64,000 nt of DNA. Origin: Propionibacteriaceae bacterium. Lineage in GTDB: Bacteria > Actinomycetota > Actinomycetes > Propionibacteriales > Propionibacteriaceae. The stretch spans positions 1 through 64,000 of the forward strand of contig WQZD01000011.1 in the NCBI GenBank assembly GCA_009780915.1. The letters are read 5' to 3'. Both the position numbers and the translations under genes were made by a program. Under the pieces are notes generated by a model. The model was not told where the DNA came from. It ran no database searches and was given only the letters and a program-made list of their open reading frames with translations. The stretch's first letter is position 1, and every line of letters begins with the position of its first letter. Positions 46,569-55,692 of this stretch are shown in pieces.

Positions 46569-46780
46569 TCCCGGGGTCGGGCTGACCTCGGGGCAGGCTG
46601 ACCCCGGGATCGCACTGACCCCGGGGTCGCGCTGTTCCCGGGGTCGCGCTGTTCCCGGGGTCGCGCTGTTCCCGGGGTCGCCCTGTTCCCGGGTCGCCCT
46701 GTTCCCGGGTCGGACAGACCTGGGGGTCGCACCGATCGCGCGGTCGCACTGATCGTGGGTCGGACGGACGGCGCGGTCGG
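46569..46780. repeat. GC-rich minisatellite of about thirteen 16-17 bp units
   Basis: Units of the form CCCGGGGTCGCGCTGTT are repeated, two of them identical in the centre (about 46621-46655), decaying towards both ends into variants such as CCCGGGTCGCCCTGTT and TCGCGCGGTCGCACTGA. It fills the space between the efflux gene stop and the holA promoter. Each unit has a CCCGGG core that can form short hairpins. No ORF is preserved by the repeat. Confidence 0.85.
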
Positions 46781-46802
46781 ATCGTACGGCATACTTAGAC
46801 GC

Positions 46803-47783
46803 GTGGCGCATGACATGTACGGACGACTGACCCTCATCACAGGGCCGGAGCAGTTCCTCGCCGAGCGGGAGATGGCGCGGTGTGTGACCCAGGCACAGGC
46901 CCAATCGCCCGACGCGGCGGTGACCACGGCCTCCGCGGCGGATCTGGATCCGGCCATGCTGGAGCAGATGACGGGGACCGACCTGTTCTCGTCCATGTCG
47001 ATCGCGTGCGTCACCGGTGCGGAGAAGACCCCCAAGGATATCGAGCCCCGGCTCACCGCCCTCCTGGCCCAGATTCCGGACAACACGGCCCTGATCGTGA
47101 CGCACGCCGGAGGCAACCAGGGCAAGGCCCTGCTCATGGCGCTGACCAAGGCTGCCGGCGCCATCCTCGAGTGCCCCGCGATCAAGCCGGGGAAACTGGC
47201 GAGTTTCGTCGACCAAGAGGTACGCGCGGGCGGCAAGCGGATCGGGGCGGACGCGGCACAGAGCCTCGTCGACTCCGTCGGCCAGGACACGCGCAGCCTG
47301 GCCGCGGCCGTGTCCCAACTGACCTCCGACACCGACGAGGACCTGATCTCCTTGGCGGTCGTGAATCAGTACTTCGCCGGACGTGCGACGGTGACCTCCT
47401 ACGCGGTCAGCGACGACGCCCTGGCCGGCAAAGTCGGGGAAGCCATCTTCAAACTACGCTGGGCCCTGTCCACTGGCGTGAGCCATGTCCTGATCACCTC
47501 CGCCCTGGCTGCCTCCTTGCGGCAGACAGGCCGATACCTGGCTCTGTCCCGGACCGGTCGCCCGTCTCCGGACGAGGTCGGCGTCCCGGCATGGAAGATG
47601 AGGACCATCTCCGCCGTGGCCAGTTCCTGGTCGGAACGCAGTGTGGCAGCCGCCATCCGGGCCGTCAGCCAGGCCGACGCCCAGATCAAGGGAGCAGCTC
47701 AGGACCCTGATTTCGCCCTGGAGCGACTGATCATCCGTCTGGCGTCCATCCGACGCGCATCCCATCAGTCTCCGACCCCCTGA
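46803..47783 (+). CDS. holA: DNA polymerase III delta subunit
   Basis: 326 residues of the clamp-loader delta family: N-terminal LTLITGPEQFLAERE, the AAA+-like domain with LTALLAQIPDNTALIVTH, a helical region AAQSLVDSVGQDTRSLAAAVSQL, and C-terminal collar helices. GTG 46803 with CATACT (46790-46795) ending 7 nt before indicates a leaderless mRNA; an upstream ATG at 46755 lies in repeat DNA. It converges with comEC, as holA often lies near comEA/comEC in bacteria. Confidence 0.9.
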   Translation: MAHDMYGRLTLITGPEQFLAEREMARCVTQAQAQSPDAAVTTASAADLDPAMLEQMTGTDLFSSMSIACVTGAEKTPKDIEPRLTALLAQIPDNTALIVTHAGGNQGKALLMALTKAAGAILECPAIKPGKLASFVDQEVRAGGKRIGADAAQSLVDSVGQDTRSLAAAVSQLTSDTDEDLISLAVVNQYFAGRATVTSYAVSDDALAGKVGEAIFKLRWALSTGVSHVLITSALAASLRQTGRYLALSRTGRPSPDEVGVPAWKMRTISAVASSWSERSVAAAIRAVSQADAQIKGAAQDPDFALERLIIRLASIRRASHQSPTP

Positions 47784-47855: not shown

Positions 47856-50183
47856 TCATTTCCCGGTGGTGATCGACCACGAGGACTCGTGCGCGATCGC
47901 CATGGACCCATGTTCATCGGTTCGTACCACCTCCATCCCATCGTTGACCAGCTCCTTCACGGTCTTGTCCGCTGGATGCCCGTAGGGGTTGCCCGCCCCC
48001 ACACCGATCAGAGCGATCGTGGCGCCCGTCGCCCGGAGGAAATCCGGGTCTTGCCGAGAAGACCCGTGATGGGGAACTTTGAGAATGTCCACTTTCAACT
48101 CATCTCCATAGGCCAAGGCGGCTCGCTGTCCATCCACCTCGACGTCCCCGGTGTCGAGGAGGCTCATCTGGGGGGTGTCGAACCTGAGTATCAGGGACTC
48201 GTTGTTCTCCGCCGAGGACTCCTCACCGTTGCTGGCCGAACCGGTCGACTGCCACGCCGACACGACCGTGACATGGACCTGCCCCACCTGGGCCGTCATC
48301 CCCGTGAACCCCACCGTCACCGGAATGCCCCGTTTCTGCGCCTGCGCCCTCACGTCCGTGTCATCACCCCCGCCACGAGGGACGAGGAGCGACCCCACGG
48401 CGAACGCGTCCAGCACCTCCCGCAGCGCTCCGGCGTGGTCGGCGTGGAAATGAGTGAGCACCAGGACGGGAATCTCGTGGATCCCCAATCGGCTCAGGCA
48501 CCCCACCACGGACCCCCCTTCAGGCCCCACGTCGATCACCAGGGCCTGATCGCCCCCGGAGTGGACGGCGACCGCGTCGCCTTGTCCGACGTCACAGGCG
48601 GCGACCGTCCACGCCTGGCCCGGCCAGCCCGGTTGGAACGGCGGCACCAGCATCCCCGCCACCATGACGGCCGTGGCCGTGGCGACGGTCCACAGCCGGC
48701 TCAGCACGACCGGCATGAGCCAGGCCACCACCCCACAGACGAGGGTGACCACGACCAACCCGGCCACACTCGTGGGCCAGGGATGCGAGGCGCCCGGAAG
48801 GACGGCCAAGTGATGGGCCACGCTCAGGATCGGCTGCGCGCACCAGCCTGCGACGTACCCGGCCCAGGACGCGACCGTGGCGCTGACCGGTGACGTGATG
48901 GCGGCCACCAGCCCGATCACCGTGGCGGGCGCCACCCAGGGGCTCGCTGCGGCGTTGGCCGCCAATCCAGCGATGCTGACGCTGCCCGACAACCAACAGA
49001 TGACTGGTTGGGTGGCCACCTGCGCCGCCAACGGGATCGCCATGGCCTCAGCCGCCCACAGCGGCAGCCACCGGTTGAGGACGGCCGTCCATCGGCGACC
49101 CCACACGATGATTCCCACGCACGCCAGCACCGACAGGCAGAAACCCACCGATCGGCTCATCCACGGATCGATCCAGCACAAACCGGTGACGGCCAGGCAC
49201 GCAGCGGCGATGCCCGACCCCGAGCCTCGTCCCACTGCCATCAACGTCACGACCCCCATGGCCGCCGCCCTCAGCACGCTCGGTTCCGAGTGGCACAAGG
49301 CGATGAACACCACCACACCGATGACTGACACGAGCGTGAGCCACCTCCCACGCACCCCACATCGACGAGCCAGCACCGAGAGGAAGGACAACAGGATCGC
49401 CAGATTGGCCCCCGACACCGCCATGAGATGGAGCAGACCCGTGACACGGAACTCGTCGTTCATGGAGGTGGAGATGGCGGAGACGTCGCCCACCACCAAG
49501 GCCGGCACCAACGACGCCTGGTCAGGAGGGTTGCCTCCCATGGCGTCGCTCAACCCGCTCCTCATGGACTCGATGACGCGTTGCCACAGCGGAGGGCCCC
49601 GTATGAGGTGAGACTGCGACACCGGGGACAGCACGGCCGCCGTCCCGTCACTGACATCGGAGACTCCCAGACGCACGGTGACGTCCACGACGGACCCTGG
49701 CGCGTACTCCAGCCACTGCTGAGCGAAAGAGCTGGGGACCAGCAGGACGACGGGTTGGCGCATGGTCATCGCGTCACCGGCGACAACGCCCCGCAGACAC
49801 ACGGCGTTCACCACGGCCATGCCCCAGGATGGGGACGCCCGAGAGGATTGGACGTCGACCCACACGTCGACCACGGATCGCGACTGAGCGCCCTTCGCCA
49901 AGGGACTATGCTCCAGACTCAGCACTCGTTCCCCGCCCACGACGGCGCACGACGCCAGCATCACGGCGGCCACCAGCACGCGCAGGGCCCGACCACGGGC
50001 GGCGCCGGAACGAGGCGCTCCACGCGCGAGGACACCGGCCAGCACGCCGGCGGCGAGAGCGCCCGCCCCGACGACCTCCGCCCCCCATACCCACCCGGTG
50101 ACCACCCACATCCCCGCCCACACGGCGCAGGCCGGGACGAGCATCCGCAGATCCCACGCCGTCACAGATCGAGTCTCATCCAT
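47856..50183 (-). CDS. comEC: ComEC/Rec2 DNA-uptake channel protein
   Basis: 775 residues: N-terminal spans and OB-like region (about 1-190), the Competence domain with LLHLMAVSGANLAILLSFLSVL and further spans (about 230-500), then a C-terminal metallo-beta-lactamase domain with LTHFHADHAGALREV and HHGSSRQDPDF. It forms the inner-membrane channel for single-stranded DNA. ATG 50183 has GAGG upstream and lies 8 nt after comEA. The MBL ligands look intact, so nuclease activity is possible. Confidence 0.92.
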   Translation of the reverse strand: MDETRSVTAWDLRMLVPACAVWAGMWVVTGWVWGAEVVGAGALAAGVLAGVLARGAPRSGAARGRALRVLVAAVMLASCAVVGGERVLSLEHSPLAKGAQSRSVVDVWVDVQSSRASPSWGMAVVNAVCLRGVVAGDAMTMRQPVVLLVPSSFAQQWLEYAPGSVVDVTVRLGVSDVSDGTAAVLSPVSQSHLIRGPPLWQRVIESMRSGLSDAMGGNPPDQASLVPALVVGDVSAISTSMNDEFRVTGLLHLMAVSGANLAILLSFLSVLARRCGVRGRWLTLVSVIGVVVFIALCHSEPSVLRAAAMGVVTLMAVGRGSGSGIAAACLAVTGLCWIDPWMSRSVGFCLSVLACVGIIVWGRRWTAVLNRWLPLWAAEAMAIPLAAQVATQPVICWLSGSVSIAGLAANAAASPWVAPATVIGLVAAITSPVSATVASWAGYVAGWCAQPILSVAHHLAVLPGASHPWPTSVAGLVVVTLVCGVVAWLMPVVLSRLWTVATATAVMVAGMLVPPFQPGWPGQAWTVAACDVGQGDAVAVHSGGDQALVIDVGPEGGSVVGCLSRLGIHEIPVLVLTHFHADHAGALREVLDAFAVGSLLVPRGGGDDTDVRAQAQKRGIPVTVGFTGMTAQVGQVHVTVVSAWQSTGSASNGEESSAENNESLILRFDTPQMSLLDTGDVEVDGQRAALAYGDELKVDILKVPHHGSSRQDPDFLRATGATIALIGVGAGNPYGHPADKTVKELVNDGMEVVRTDEHGSMAIAHESSWSITTGK

Positions 50184-50191
50184 CGTCGACC

Positions 50192-50971
50192 TCACACGCT
50201 CACGTACGGCTCGATCTGGGCGAAGGTCTTGGGACCGATCCCGTCCACCTCCTGGAGTTGGGTCACGGACGCGAACGCCCCGTTCTTGGCCCTCCACGCC
50301 AGGATGGCTTTGGCCGTCACAGGCCCCACGCCGGGGAGAGTCTCCAACTGTGCTTGGGTGGCCTGGTTGAGGTTGACCATCGGCGAGGCCGCGGTCGTGG
50401 ACACCCCGGGAGCATCCCCCGCGACCCCCTGTCTGACTTGCCCGAGAGGGTGGCTCGTGGTTCCGATCTGGATCTGGCATCCGTCCACCAGCACGGCGGC
50501 CAGGTTCAGGTCGTCCGGATCGGCGTCGGGCGCGAACCCGCCCGCGGCGTTGATCGCGTCGATGACCCGGGCGCCGACGGGCACGGTGATCACCCCCGGG
50601 CGCTGCACCGCGCCGACGACATGCACGAACCACATCGCCGTCGGGGTGGCCGGAAGGGTTGGCGACGCCTCGGCCCATGTCGGGGTGGCGACCGGCTCGT
50701 CGACCGACACGGCCCTCGCCCGCATCACCGTCCACGTGGCCAGGATGACAGCCGCCAACGCCAAGGCTGACACGACCTTCATGTGTTGTCCCGTGAAATG
50801 GCGGACACGACCAGCCACCCCCGTCGCCCCACGCCGCGCATGCTCCGGCTCATGGTGGTCATGAGAGTCACGAGGCGCCCGACCTGACGGGTCCGAGCGC
50901 TCCAGGTCGTCGAATTGCAGGCCCAAGCGAGCCACATAGGAATGCGGCTGAGGCTCCTGGTTCGTCTTCAC
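50192..50971 (-). CDS. comEA: ComEA-type DNA-binding competence protein
   Basis: 259 residues: cytoplasmic N-terminus, one span (about 64-84), an SLBB-like domain (VVGAVQRPGVITVPVGARVIDAINAAGG) and a C-terminal helix-hairpin-helix pair (NLNQATQAQLETLPGVGPVTAKAIL; FASVTQLQEVDGIGPKTFAQIEPY). It captures double-stranded DNA for ComEC. GTG 50971 lies 6 nt after CATAGT, predicting a leaderless mRNA. Upstream there is an element shared with the DUF4192 gene. Confidence 0.93.
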   Translation of the reverse strand: MKTNQEPQPHSYVARLGLQFDDLERSDPSGRAPRDSHDHHEPEHARRGATGVAGRVRHFTGQHMKVVSALALAAVILATWTVMRARAVSVDEPVATPTWAEASPTLPATPTAMWFVHVVGAVQRPGVITVPVGARVIDAINAAGGFAPDADPDDLNLAAVLVDGCQIQIGTTSHPLGQVRQGVAGDAPGVSTTAASPMVNLNQATQAQLETLPGVGPVTAKAILAWRAKNGAFASVTQLQEVDGIGPKTFAQIEPYVSV

Positions 50972-50977
50972 ACCAGG

Positions 50978-51060
50978 ACTATGGTCGCCGAGACACCGGA
51001 AGTGTCAGGATCACGCCCATCTGTGGATAACTTGGCACACGTCCATCATCCCTGTGGACA
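50978..51060 (-). promoter_or_regulatory. comEA-comEC promoter with paired DnaA-like boxes
   Basis: -10 CATAGT (50978-50983), no good -35. TGTGCCAAGTTATCCACA (51022-51039, minus strand) contains a perfect DnaA box TTATCCACA, and CTGTCCACA-like sequence lies at 51052-51060. The 18-mer recurs upstream of the DUF4192 gene at the same distance (51 nt) from the start codon, with 38 nt to the -10 in both. Confidence 0.7.
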
Positions 51061-51125
51061 GAGACACCTGCGCCGACGGGCACAGCCGACCCTGTCACCC
51101 ACGTGACAAGGATCGACGCAAGACG

Positions 51126-53600
51126 TCAGCCCTCGGGGACGATCGACACCATCTTGGGCGCACGGACGATGATCTTGGCCACGGGACGATCCGCGAGGAA
51201 CTTCCTCACGTTCTCGTCGGCCAGCGCCACTCGTTCGGCCTCCTCATCGGTGATGTCGGCCGCCACGTCGATCTTGGCCCGTACCTTCCCCTGGACCTGG
51301 ACCGCCATCGTCACCGTCAGCGCAGCCCGCAACTGGGGATCCACCTGCGGCCAGGACGCCTGTGCCACCGACGGACGGTGCCCCAGGATCTCCCACATCT
51401 CCTCGGCGACGTAGGGAGCGAACAAGGACAAGGCGATCGCCGTCCATTCGACGGCCTCGCGCACGGCGGGGTCGGCCCCGCCGACGCCGGAGTCGATCGC
51501 TTTCCGGGTGGCGTTGACCAACTCCATCAGCCTCGCCACACACACGTTGAAACGTCGCATGTCGAGCAGGTCGGTCACCTCGCCTAGGACCCGGTGGGTG
51601 ACGCGGCGCATGTCCTGGTCACCCGTGGCCGGGTCGACGCCCGCCTCGGACGTGACGTCGCCCGCCAGGCGCCAGGCCCGTTGGAGGAACCGCAGAGTCG
51701 CCGACGGAGACACGTCCGCCCAGTCGATGTCGTCCTCGGGCGGGCCCGCGAAGACGACGGTGGTCCGGATGGCGTCGACGCCGTACTGGTCGATCTGGGC
51801 GCCCAAGTCCACGCCGTTGCCCAAGGACTTGGACATGGCCTTGCCCTGGTTGATGACCTGCCCTTGGTTCATCAAGCGCGTGAACGGCTCGGTGAAGTCG
51901 ATGAGCTTCAGGTCGTACAACACCTTGGTGAAGAAACGGGAGTACAGGAGGTGCAGGATCGCGTGCTCGACCCCGCCCACGTACTGGTCGACAGGCATCC
52001 AGCGTGCCACGTCCGCCCGCTCGAAAGCGTTGCTCGTGTCGCGCGGGGAGCAGTACCGATAGTAGTACCAGGAGGAGTCGACGAAGGTGTCCATGGTGTC
52101 GGCGTCCCGGGTGGCCGGCCCCCCGCAGGTCGGGCAGGTGGTCGTGACCCAGTCAGTGGCGCCGGCCAGGGGGGAGATCCCCTTCGGGGCCAGTTCGGCG
52201 CCCCGCAAGTCCGGCAGTTCGACAGGCAACTGATCGAGGGGGACGGGAACCTCCCCGTCGACGGGACAGTGGATGATCGGGATGGGGCAGCCCCAGAAGC
52301 GCTGACGAGACAACAGCCAGTCGCGCAGGCGATACGTGACCGCCCGCCGGCCAGTGCCGTCGCGCTCCAGCTTCTCGCCGATCACCGCGATTCCGGACTT
52401 CTTGTCCGCCAGGCCGTCCAGGTCGCCGGAGTTGACGTACACCCCGTTACCAGCGGTGGCGATGCCCGATTCGCACGGGTCGGCCTCGCCGGTGTCGATG
52501 ACCATGCGGACCGTGAGCCCGTGCGCGGTGGCGAAATCCAGGTCACGCTGGTCATGCGCGGGCACAGCCATGATCGCGCCTGTGCCGTACTCGCTCAAGA
52601 CGTAGTCAGCCGCCCACATGGGGATCGACTCCCCCGTCAACGGATTGATCGCGTGGCGGCCGAGGAAGACGCCCGTCTTCGGCCTGTCCGTGGACTGGCG
52701 CTCGATCTCGGTCACCTGTTTGGTCTTGTCGAGATAGACCTCGAAGTCAGCGCGGCAGTCGTCCGAGACGAGTTCGGCGGCGAGTTCGCTGTCAGGCGCC
52801 ACCACCATGAAGGTCGCGCCGTACAGGGTGTCAGGACGTGTGGTGAACACCGTCACCGGCTCGTCCCTGCCCTCCACGGGGAAGTCGACGTACGCGCCCT
52901 CGGAGCGCCCGATCCAGTTGCGTTGCATGGCGAGCACCCGGTCCGGCCATTTCCCTTCCAACTCGACCATGTCGTCGAGCAGGCGCTGGGCGTAGGCCGT
53001 GATCTTGAAGTACCACTGAGTCAACTGCCGTTTCGTCACCGCGGAGTGGCACCTCTCGCACTCCCCTTGGACGACCTGTTCGTTGGCCAGGACCGTCTGG
53101 CAACTCGGACACCAGTTGACGTAACTGGCCTTGCGATAGGCCAGTCCCATCTCATGGAATTTCAGGAAGAGCCACTGCGTCCATCGGTAGTACTCGGCGT
53201 CAGAGGTGTGCAAACGCCTCGACCAGTCCACCGACAGGCCGTATCGACGGAAGGATCGCGCCTGGGTCTCGATGTTGGCATAGGTCCATTCGGAAGGATG
53301 GGTCCCATGGGCGATGGCGGCGTTCTCGGCCGGCAGGCCGAAGGAGTCCCACCCCAGGGGATGGAGGACGTCGAACCCCTGCAACTTCCAGTACCGGGCG
53401 ACGATGTCGCCCATGACGAAGGCTTCGGCATGGCCCATGTGCAAGTCGCCCGAGGGGTACGGGAACATGTCGAGAACGTACTTGCGCCGTTTCGTCCCGT
53501 CGTCGAGCGGGCGGAAAGTCTGGTGCTCGGACCAGTACGCCTGCCACTTCTCCTGGGCCGCCTGCGCGTCGTATTCTGCCGGAGCGGTCTGGTCGCTCAC
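51126..53600 (-). CDS. leuS: Leucyl-tRNA synthetase
   Basis: 824 residues, bacterial type. HIGH-like [13 protein letters not shown], the CP1 editing domain (about 220-420, with [19 protein letters not shown]), the zinc-like [25 protein letters not shown] and KMSKS in [16 protein letters not shown] 53600 follows AAGGAGAGGAC; the longer frame to 53699 has no homologous sequence. TAGAAT (53706-53711) may be the -10 of a leader of about 100 nt. No T-box is apparent in it. Confidence 0.95.
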
Positions 53601-53849
53601 GTCCTCTCCTTCCGTCGACAAGGTGTGAAACCTCGTTTCCCACCGGGACTTGGGGCGGCGACGGCATCTCCACGGACGCCTGGGCGCCGACCGGCCCACC
53701 GGGTGATTCTACTGCCCCACGCACATCCTGGTGGATTCCGTCTGGAGAGCGAAGCCCCTGGACACGAGCGCCGACCCGCCCAGACGACGCCAGGATCGGC
53801 AAGGCTACCCTTGGTTGAACACGCGCATATTCGGGATCACCATAGAGGC

Positions 53850-54539
53850 ATGACCGACAGGTCGACCACGTTGTTCTCCAAACTGAACTGGTTGCGCGCG
53901 GGTGTCTTGGGGGCCACCGATGGCATCGTGTCCATCGCTGGAATCGTCATGGGCATGGCCGCGGCCACGTCCAACTCATCCGCGCTGTTCATCGCCGGAC
54001 TCGCAGGCCTGGTCGCGGGAGCGTTGTCCATGGCAGGCGGGGAATACGTCTCGGTCTCCAGCCAGAAGGACACCGAACTGGCAGCCGTGGAGAAGGTGCG
54101 CGACATCCTCGCCGAGGATCCCGACCAAGCCTTGTCCGACCTGGCCCACTCCTTTCAAGCCCAAGGCCTGAGCCCTGACCTGGCCGCCCAGGTCGCCCAA
54201 TCCTTGTCAGACCACGACGCCGTCACGGCGCAGACCCAGGCTCGCTACGGCATCTCCGCGCACGAACAGAACTCGCCCTGGATGGCGGCCCTCGCGTCCT
54301 TCAGCTCCTTCGTCGTGGGCGCGGTGATCCCCCTCCTCGCGATGGTGTGCTCCCCCGCCCGTGCTCGGATCCCTGCGACGATCGTCGCCGTCATGGTCGC
54401 GCTCGCCCTCACCGGGTGGATCTCGGCATGGCTGGGCCAGTCCAGCATCCCCAAAGCGCTCGCGCGCAACTGCGTCGTGGGCGCGGCGACCATGGCGATC
54501 ACGTACATCGTGGGAAACATGGTGGGGATCCACCTGTGA
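53850..54539 (+). CDS. VIT family transporter (Fe/Mn vacuolar transporter-like)
   Basis: 229 residues. N-terminal RAGVLGATDGIVSIAGIVMGMAAA and GALSMAGGEYVSVSSQKDTE, the cytosolic metal-binding helix region with AVEKVRDILAEDPD, and three C-terminal spans match the CCC1/VIT1 family of iron or manganese exporters. ATG 53850 follows the only plausible initiation site but its SD (GAGG) is too close, so the start is not certain. Convergent with DUF4192. Confidence 0.88.
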   Translation: MTDRSTTLFSKLNWLRAGVLGATDGIVSIAGIVMGMAAATSNSSALFIAGLAGLVAGALSMAGGEYVSVSSQKDTELAAVEKVRDILAEDPDQALSDLAHSFQAQGLSPDLAAQVAQSLSDHDAVTAQTQARYGISAHEQNSPWMAALASFSSFVVGAVIPLLAMVCSPARARIPATIVAVMVALALTGWISAWLGQSSIPKALARNCVVGAATMAITYIVGNMVGIHL

Positions 54540-54547
54540 CGTGATCC

Positions 54548-55519
54548 TCATCCGACGACGGCCTGCGCTGGATTCTCGCCCGTCGGCTTCATGACCTCTT
54601 CCCACCACTGGGGTGGCACACAGGACCGGGATATCTGCTCCAACAAGGCGATCAGAGGGTACTCCGGGTCGCTCGACATCGCCTCCTCCAGACAGATGTT
54701 CATCACGGCGCCTTCCCCCGCGATCCACGCGACCATCCCCGTGACGCCGAGGATGGGCGTCCGCAACCCTGTCACCGTCCTCGACAAGACCTCGACCCAG
54801 AAGGGCAGACACTCCTTCGCTGTGTGCAGAGTCATCCCCTTCCAGATCTCGTCTCGCACCAACCCCGAACCGATCGCCACCCCGGCGCACAGGAAGTCCT
54901 CGTCGGACACGACCTCCCCAGCCGCCCAGCGTGACATCGCGTCCTGCACCATCTCGGCCGCGCTGCGAGGATCCTCGTCGCCCACCCGATCCAGGCACGC
55001 CATGAAGCAGGTCAGCAAGTCATCTTCCCTGGCCCCGACCGGGGCCGCCATCGTCTGCGCCAGCGCCGATCGGCTCGCCACCACGGGACCCCCCATGGCG
55101 GCGGAGACAGGGCCCGGATCCGGCAGAGGCCTGCCGAGGGTCGAGCCCGCTTCATCGAGGAAGCACCACTGGCCGTGGGACACCACGATGGCGTCGAGCA
55201 CCCGTCGGCCCAGTCGGTCGGAGATGTCCTCCAAGACCGAGCGCGCCTTGGCCCGATCCCCGTAGGCGGCCAGGAAGACGGTCGTGCCGTCCACGGGGTT
55301 CCCCCGGGCATCGCACGTCAGCCTCTCAGTCAGCCAGGCGGCAGCCTGGGGGTCCTCGAAGGCGTCCAGATCTTCATGCGCGGTCACAGCCACCTGACTG
55401 TGCCGGACCACGACCGCGACGAGCGCGTCACAGGGGTGGAAGCCGATCAGATGAGGGATCGCTTCGAGCAGGTGCTCCGGCGACCGTAGTGTGGGAATGG
55501 CGGTGGTTGTAGTTCTCAT
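54548..55519 (-). CDS. DUF4192 family protein
   Basis: 323 residues, soluble. The N-terminus TLRSPEHLLEAIPHLIGFHPCDALVAVVV is the family signature, followed by AYGDRAKARSVLEDISDRLG and a helical C-terminal half. Function not known to me. ATG 55519 has CATTGT (55526-55531) ending 6 nt upstream and no SD, so it is probably leaderless. It shares a regulatory element with comEA-comEC. Confidence 0.82.
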   Translation of the reverse strand: MRTTTTAIPTLRSPEHLLEAIPHLIGFHPCDALVAVVVRHSQVAVTAHEDLDAFEDPQAAAWLTERLTCDARGNPVDGTTVFLAAYGDRAKARSVLEDISDRLGRRVLDAIVVSHGQWCFLDEAGSTLGRPLPDPGPVSAAMGGPVVASRSALAQTMAAPVGAREDDLLTCFMACLDRVGDEDPRSAAEMVQDAMSRWAAGEVVSDEDFLCAGVAIGSGLVRDEIWKGMTLHTAKECLPFWVEVLSRTVTGLRTPILGVTGMVAWIAGEGAVMNICLEEAMSSDPEYPLIALLEQISRSCVPPQWWEEVMKPTGENPAQAVVG

Positions 55520-55525
55520 GCTGAG

Positions 55526-55607
55526 ACAATGGGCATCCGATCCCCTGTGTTGCTGGCGGCCGACGAAAATGTGGATAACTTGGCACAGATCGCCCCACCT
55601 GTGGACA
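55526..55607 (-). promoter_or_regulatory. DUF4192 promoter with paired DnaA-like boxes
   Basis: -10 CATTGT (55526-55531), no good -35. TGTGCCAAGTTATCCACA at 55570-55587 is identical to the comEA element and 51 nt from the start codon. The second box, TTGTCCACAG (55599-55608), matches the DnaA-box form common in high-GC actinobacteria. Confidence 0.7.
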
Positions 55608-55692
55608 ACTCGTCCCCGACCCGCGACGGACTCGCCGATCGCCGCCCGACCAGCCCCACCCCCAAGGCGGAAATCCCGTATCCTGGTCAGTG

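Follow-up and report, generated by a model that had tools for sequence, protein, structure and literature searches.

A DnaA-type box at a fixed promoter position marks a putative competence regulon including DUF4192 in Propionibacteriaceae

We describe a promoter element, built on a DnaA-type box, that precedes the DNA uptake genes comEA-comEC and a DUF4192 gene in a Propionibacteriaceae bacterium (assembly GCA_009780915.1). Both sites lie in the first 64,000 nucleotides (nt) of contig WQZD01000011.1, the whole stretch analyzed and here called the window. The conserved unit is the 9-mer TTRTCCACA, which ends about 50 nt ahead of a start of the leaderless type; a second box often lies about 30 bp farther upstream. 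Conservation makes it almost certain that the element is functional, and sequence comparisons place it in a competence/Tad regulon that includes DUF4192 and is conserved in the Propionibacteriaceae. The element appears to be the control site of this regulon, with DnaA as its probable regulator. For the control of competence in actinobacteria, the element supplies a regulon, a target for mutation, and a candidate regulator common to these organisms.

The element in the comEA and DUF4192 promoters

A sequence-only reading of the window had reported that an 18-mer, TGTGCCAAGTTATCCACA, occurs on the minus strand upstream of both genes at the same distance from the start codon. Its two copies (51022-51039 and 55570-55587) proved to be the only matches in the window at up to three mismatches, where shuffled sequences lead one to expect 0.01, and 50 nt separate the last base of the 18-mer from the start codon at both genes (comEA GTG at 50971, DUF4192 ATG at 55519). 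The -10-like hexamers CATAGT and CATTGT were likewise found 6 nt from the codon, as had been described, and Pfam domains uphold the names comEA, comEC, and DUF4192. A second upstream box is present at both genes (CTGTCCACA at 51053-51061 for comEA, TTGTCCACA at 55600-55608 for DUF4192), but the gap between it and the 18-mer is 13 nt and 12 nt, respectively, rather than the 11 to 12 given earlier. The statement that neither promoter has a usable -35 goes too far for comEA, where CTGACA stands 19 bp ahead of CATAGT; at DUF4192, neither GACA nor GTCA is seen by eye at that place. The features are as follows.

51053 to 51061, minus strand: distal DnaA-type box CTGTCCACA of comEA, 31 bp start-to-start from the proximal box
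51022 to 51039, minus strand: 18-mer at comEA, the proximal box plus TGTGCCAAG, the latter part not conserved in relatives
51022 to 51030, minus strand: proximal DnaA-type box TTATCCACA of comEA, ending 50 nt ahead of the start codon
51003 to 51008, minus strand: -35-like CTGACA of comEA, 19 bp ahead of the -10
50978 to 50983, minus strand: -10-like CATAGT of comEA, 6 nt ahead of GTG; a leaderless start is predicted
50192 to 50971, minus strand: comEA (SLBB and helix-hairpin-helix domains, Pfam)
47856 to 50735, minus strand: comEC reading frame, true start inside, adjoining comEA; PF03772 (Competence)
55600 to 55608, minus strand: distal DnaA-type box TTGTCCACA of DUF4192, 30 bp from the proximal box
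55570 to 55578, minus strand: proximal DnaA-type box TTATCCACA of DUF4192, ending 50 nt ahead of ATG
55526 to 55531, minus strand: -10-like CATTGT of DUF4192, 6 nt ahead of ATG
54548 to 55519, minus strand: DUF4192 gene; PF13830, 126.6 bits against a cut-off of 27.8

The 18-mer itself is not the unit that is shared. What is kept is the 9-mer TTRTCCACA, often joined by a second 9-mer 28 to 32 bp away. A palindromic activator site (TGTG..CACA) was considered and rejected because, as judged by eye, the TGTGCCAAG half is lost in the sites of relatives.

A common element ahead of uptake, pilus, and single-strand-binding genes

At up to three mismatches the 18-mer matched nine times in the 2.78-Mb genome, eight of these matches retaining AGTTATCCACA, and the reversed-pattern control matched nowhere. 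A sequence profile was built from six aligned genome sites having two clear boxes. It found seven sites at E ≤ 1.6e-6, followed by the dnaA/oriC region at 0.009 and then by nine matches at E values of at least 0.15; six of the top seven had built the profile and so match by construction, and the seventh, C1:55895, is new. These seven precede comEA-comEC, DUF4192, ssb, yraN-comM (UPF0102 and Mg_chelatase domains), a cpaB-like gene (no Pfam match, named by eye), an Flp-pilin/TadE cluster (also named by eye), and a prepilin peptidase gene. The new site (G000:C1:55895-55939; L016 1501-1545) lies between an open reading frame (ORF) for a Phd-type antitoxin and the A24 prepilin peptidase; a clear -10 there is directed towards the Phd ORF. 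Three weak profile matches having two boxes 30 to 31 bp apart were found ahead of tadZ, whose product is a ParA/CbiA-type protein, and of genes for a LysM protein and an M23 peptidase, and one box alone stands ahead of a gene identified by eye as being of the DUF559 type. From common gene order, dprA presumably lies behind comM.

Searches that did not depend on the profile agreed with this picture. The pattern TCCACA-N22-26-TCCACA occurs 16 times in the genome, compared with 2 in the reversed control. Ten of the 16 are regulon promoters and the other six were not placed in gene context, so that the scatter over random positions that the sequence-only reading had named as speaking against it was not what we observed. 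Perfect TTRTCCACA occurs 58 times, against 24 in the control. Thirteen of the 29 copies of TTATCCACA stand in regulon promoters, five at the dnaA locus, two ahead of dnaB or the adjacent resuscitation-factor-like gene, and nine elsewhere. The earlier suggestion that pilus genes and further com genes be searched for the element was borne out by its presence at the Tad/Flp pilus genes, the cpaB-like gene, the prepilin peptidase gene, ssb, and yraN-comM. As expected of a competence regulon, one cis element is common to genes for DNA uptake, for the pilus, and for the handling of single-stranded DNA.

In addition to its paired-box promoter, the M23 peptidase gene (L021; G000:C2:122765-122801) has a signal-like start and CATGGT 6 nt ahead of its ATG. 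The product is possibly a wall hydrolase belonging to the regulon.

Promoter architecture

By eye, GACA (six promoters) or GTCA (one) occupies the place of the comEA -35 in 7 of the 10 aligned promoters of the genome. Ten genome promoters share a -10-like C/A/T-AT-A/G/T-GTC near the start, which is missing at tadZ and on the plus-strand prepilin peptidase side. This shared sequence is what would be expected if an alternative sigma factor defined the regulon through a CATRGTC-like -10 and the boxes only modulated it. When the family and class sets were aligned on the start codon, however, only the A at -11 and the T at -7 stood out, as in leaderless promoters, and position -12 was C or A in the family and T in the class while the box stayed. 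We regard control by an alternative sigma factor as extremely unlikely. Because the -10 varies between family and class and the box does not, the box is the lasting part of the promoter; we infer leaderless transcription from these promoters.

Conservation in the genus

Profile matches at E ≤ 0.01 were found in 11 of 19 genomes of the genus, or 10 of 18 relatives, with 35 matches listed in the relatives. In 23 of the 26 matches that were fetched, the gene at the site encodes a relative of a protein of the regulon defined here. The genes are those for DUF4192, comEA, ssb, cpaB, tadZ, flp/tadE, LysM, and the DUF559 type, and in G017 a single site stands between divergent cpaB and DUF4192 genes. 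By eye, the relatives do not retain the TGTG half in the middle of the 18-mer and mostly keep boxes of the GTTATCCACAG and AGTTATCCACAGAT types. Among the three remaining fetched matches is L047 1501-1544, where one relative carries the element ahead of a PDDEXK_2 nuclease-transposase; in a second relative, at L052 550-590, it precedes a possibly similar protein with no Pfam match.

Conservation in the family and the class

The family tests were independent of the profile. comEA was found in 78 of 78 family genomes, and 64 upstream regions were used (6 genus genomes were kept apart and 8 regions not fetched); DUF4192 was found in 75 of 78, with 70 upstream regions used, two of them from the genus; and for tadZ 50 of 76 were used, including six genus genomes, our own among them, with the clipped and misanchored locus of G026 counted as a miss. 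A box ending 49 to 53 nt before an in-frame start was present at comEA in 50/64, at DUF4192 in 45/70, and at tadZ in 42/50. The neighbor of comEA, leuS, taken from the named loci described below, served as a control and had such a box in none of 55, and shuffle means for this test were 0.1 to 0.35. The shuffles and the leuS control reject a chance origin of the element, and the fixed distance to the start, together with the empty leuS control, points to promoter function. DUF4192 owes its place in the regulon to the same test as tadZ, at a somewhat lower share.

Same-strand pairs of boxes 28 to 32 bp apart were found upstream of comEA in 24 of the 64 family genomes, which represent 14 of 25 genera; 40 runs with shuffled sequence gave a mean of 0.025 and at most 1. 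Between 10 and 200 bp, only six pairs had any other spacing. Upstream of DUF4192, 21 of 70 regions had such a pair, with 13 spacings of exactly 30. As judged by eye, the distal comEA box is mostly inverted in genera g3, g8, g10, and g12 (for example, L141 and L145), so that the boxes face each other with the proximal box unmoved; among the upstream regions listed for g15, comEA has the proximal box only. An obligatory pair in direct orientation is thereby rejected. In several genera the distal box is inverted or missing and the proximal one is retained, which makes the proximal box the more constant of the two.

Eighty comEA loci were taken from named records (Propionibacteriaceae, Nocardioides, Marmoricola, Aeromicrobium, Gordonia, Williamsia, Nocardia, Mycolicibacterium, Pseudonocardia, and others). 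A box with at most one mismatch lies 50 to 52 nt ahead of an in-frame comEA start in 63 of them, and one without mismatch in 32; shuffles gave 0.2 and 0, respectively, and other long ORFs of these loci, spurious frames included, 21/1728. Of the 80 loci, 28 had a DUF4192 gene that was recognized, and in 18 of these a box lies 44 to 60 nt before a start. A separate class draw comprised 148 genomes, 145 with comEA, from which 109 upstream regions were read (29 loci plus 80 fetched, two of the fetched stretches being shorter than asked). Here a box stood 48 to 66 nt ahead of the comEA start in 73/109, with peaks at 50 to 53 and, for the distal box, at 80 to 82. From these sequences, the element is a feature of the comEA promoter over much of the class.

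The comEA box of Gordonia, Williamsia, Nocardia, and Mycolicibacterium was observed 62 to 64 nt from the start, about one helical turn more than elsewhere, in eight of nine loci, and at 55 in L320. The loci are as follows.

L320, L322, L326, L329, L331, L336, L339, L343, L347: comEA loci of Gordonia, Williamsia, Nocardia, and Mycolicibacterium

Two further explanations can be weighed here. The identity of the two 18-mers in the window, only 4.5 kb apart, might suggest chance or a recent local duplication, but the flanking sequence is not the same at the two sites, and the element is found again at genes unlinked to these and in many genera; this explanation is already refuted by the family counts, and its probability is close to nil. 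Alternatively, the boxes might bind DnaA mainly for titration or to sense the passage of the fork, any effect on com transcription being secondary, and the accessible text of PMC7738170 does describe extra-oriC DnaA binding that can titrate DnaA in model bacteria. Against this, the constant spacing from the start in three independent transcription units, with no box at leuS, points to promoter function, and the 62 to 64 nt in eight of nine Gordonia/Williamsia/Nocardia/Mycolicibacterium loci is likewise a promoter-type constraint. We consider a titration role very unlikely.

DnaA as the probable regulator

When only TCCACA was held fixed, the motif recovered from the family (56/64 genomes, GC-rich background) restored TTGTCCACA, the preceding bases being T in 73%, T in 80%, and G in 71% and the following base G in 93%. 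The available text of PMC4285127 lists TTGTCCACA as a high-affinity DnaA box of Mycobacterium tuberculosis and Streptomyces coelicolor, in agreement with the sequence-only reading, which had called the box a consensus DnaA box. The promoters thus carry host-consensus DnaA boxes at a fixed position, as is expected of promoters controlled by DnaA. A search of the genome, which is 99% complete, with Bac_DnaA_C (PF08299) at E ≤ 0.1 returned a single match, DnaA itself, and no paralogue was found that might serve as the binder. Because the box matches the published DnaA box and DnaA is the sole Bac_DnaA_C protein found in the genome, DnaA is the simplest binder, and we think it rather likely that DnaA binds the element. 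The earlier proposal of one regulator for DNA uptake and DUF4192, "DnaA itself or an unknown competence regulator," receives support at the level of sequence, from the element shared within the genome and the family.

The 9-mer also marks the dnaA locus and a four-box cluster ahead of dnaB. The four boxes of the cluster are perfect DnaA boxes, flanked on one side by dnaB and on the other by a resuscitation-promoting-factor-like gene, both genes being named by eye (G000:C1:73466-73700; loci L241 and L244). Mycobacterial DnaA binds upstream of dnaB (PMC7738170), a site that the cluster recalls.

The alternative that we take most seriously, while holding it to be unlikely, is a dedicated and still undescribed competence activator that reads TTRTCCACA, its resemblance to a DnaA box being convergent or the protein competing with DnaA. 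Such an activator would fit the lesser conservation of the first two box bases outside the family, the absence of comEA from the mycobacterial DnaA maps in the main text of PMC7738170, and the effect on comEA/EC promoter activity that the accessible text of PMC8467076 ascribes to Mlut_14660, a small HTH_17 protein encoded beside a cpaB/SAF gene in Micrococcus luteus. However, the TCCACA-anchored motif is a DnaA box with little else besides the following G, the private motif of a dedicated activator would be expected to drift over the whole class, and no second Bac_DnaA_C protein was found in the genome.

Several observations weigh against control of these genes by a conserved DnaA box. Among the 16 genus genomes with comEA, G003 has no box at this gene and G017 only TCCCCA, and eight genomes of the genus have no profile match; loss at the com genes of close relatives, which the sequence-only reading had named as counting against it, is therefore seen in these two, although most relatives keep the element. 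TCCCCA is described as a weak DnaA W-box in Caulobacter (PMC4285127, accessible text). In the diverged subclade of the genus, comEA has boxes of the TTATCCCCA and TTGTCCCCA types 30 to 31 bp apart or single degenerate ones, while TTATCCACA persists at the dnaA locus; the comparison of com with dnaA-locus boxes covers the genus only, and it also finds TTATCCCCA at the dnaA loci of G010, G013, and G014. In the family, no box was found at 49 to 53 nt in 14/64 comEA, 25/70 DUF4192, and 8/50 tadZ genes, and for DUF4192 there are 37 pairs at 10 to 200 bp that fall outside 28 to 32, with a smaller peak at 39 to 43. Seven of 29 class families (f6, f7, f8, f25, f26, f30, and f33; one to four genomes each) have no box at 48 to 66 nt. 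In the class set (76/109 genomes), the bases preceding TCCACA are T in 63%, T in 55%, and G in 59%, and this lower retention of the first two is compatible with a DnaA site of lesser strength or with a different protein. The genomes are related, so the counts are not independent, and starts were picked among in-frame candidates.

The mycobacterial maps also belong on this side. In vitro mapping for M. tuberculosis and chromatin immunoprecipitation sequencing for M. smegmatis gave five DnaA regions, oriC, rpmH-dnaA, upstream of dnaB, Rv0010c-Rv0011c, and Rv3843c-RVnc0040 (PMC7738170), and neither comEA nor Rv2415 is named in the main text of that report. The M. smegmatis cells were, according to its accessible text, in exponential growth. 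In family f5, which has a 62- to 63-nt spacing like the mycobacteria-type loci, TCCACA is mostly preceded by A and the base ahead of that A varies. Given the exponential cells and the variable f5 box, a weak or conditional comEA site could have been missed by these maps, a point that we offer as an excuse and not as a test.

A model for the regulon

In the model that we propose, the regulator would bind a TTRTCCACA box whose center lies about 55 bp upstream of the transcription start, for which we take the start codon; a second box is often present about three helical turns farther upstream. The target would be a leaderless promoter having its -10 at -12 to -7 and a -35 that is weak or absent. 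If DnaA binds there, the position upstream of the -35 makes it quite likely that binding activates. The Tad/Flp uptake pilus, ComEA-ComEC, SSB, YraN-ComM, and DUF4192 would thereby be set together, and, should the regulator be DnaA, competence would track how much of the replication initiator is present or which nucleotide it carries, wiring DNA uptake straight to the initiation of replication. We would put at about even chances the broader proposal that DnaA is an ancestral master regulator of natural competence in Actinomycetes, that a DnaA box at -50 of comEA, retained over much of the class, directly couples uptake (Tad pilus, ComEA-ComEC, SSB, ComM, and DUF4192) to the state of replication initiation, and that DUF4192 is a new competence protein.

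Relation to known systems

Competence regulons are governed by ComK and SigX in the Bacillota and by CRP/Sxy in the Gammaproteobacteria. The set described here resembles these in that one short cis element extends across the uptake pilus, comEA/comEC, ssb, and DNA-processing genes, and differs in that its site is a DnaA-type box. Competence regulators of both groups are mentioned in the accessible text of PMC8467076. The DnaA transcriptional regulon of Escherichia coli, Bacillus subtilis, and Caulobacter, as described in the available part of PMC8203912, likewise has 9-mer boxes upstream of promoters and includes autoregulation of dnaA, and the dnaA locus and dnaB carry boxes in this genome too. 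The main text of PMC8203912 does not use the word "competence," whereas the genes here form a DNA uptake regulon with one fixed geometry. A likeness is also found in Streptococcus pneumoniae, in which replication stress is linked to competence and the level of DnaA has an influence: excess DnaA induces competence, an effect attributed by the authors to the rate of initiation (PMC8394987, accessible text).

In M. luteus, the Flp/Tad pilus, comEA/EC, and a cpaB/SAF gene have been tied to competence, as they are here, but DnaA is unmentioned in the main texts of these reports (PMC8467076, PMC6667448, and PMC12849477), and M. luteus is outside the 80 loci. Deletion of two (p)ppGpp synthetase genes lowered transformation nearly 100-fold (accessible text of PMC6667448), mutations at the small HTH gene are implicated in competence (accessible text of PMC8467076), and no DNA site is named in the accessible text of either. 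We found no known actinobacterial com motif or link between DnaA and competence in the literature searched, which lacked most subscription papers.

DUF4192 and the window neighborhood

A single paper in the literature searched names DUF4192. The element assigns this family to a process and offers a sequence-based means of predicting competence genes. In the AlphaFold2 model of the protein, a confident one (mean pLDDT, 91.1), the N-terminal domain is alpha/beta and the C-terminal half is helical; the model gave no Foldseek match at E ≤ 0.001. On a second look, the best match of the N-terminal domain was RadC (2qlc_A; Z 8.2, rmsd 3.3, 112 aligned, 9% identity), a weak hint, and many TPR proteins are similar to the helical half. 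Neither likeness, both drawn from the predicted model, gives DUF4192 a function.

A LeuS gene, recognized by Pfam, sits between comEA-comEC and DUF4192. Beyond comEC, the ORF at 46755-47783 has no Pfam match at E ≤ 0.001; its position and sequence suggest that it may be holA.

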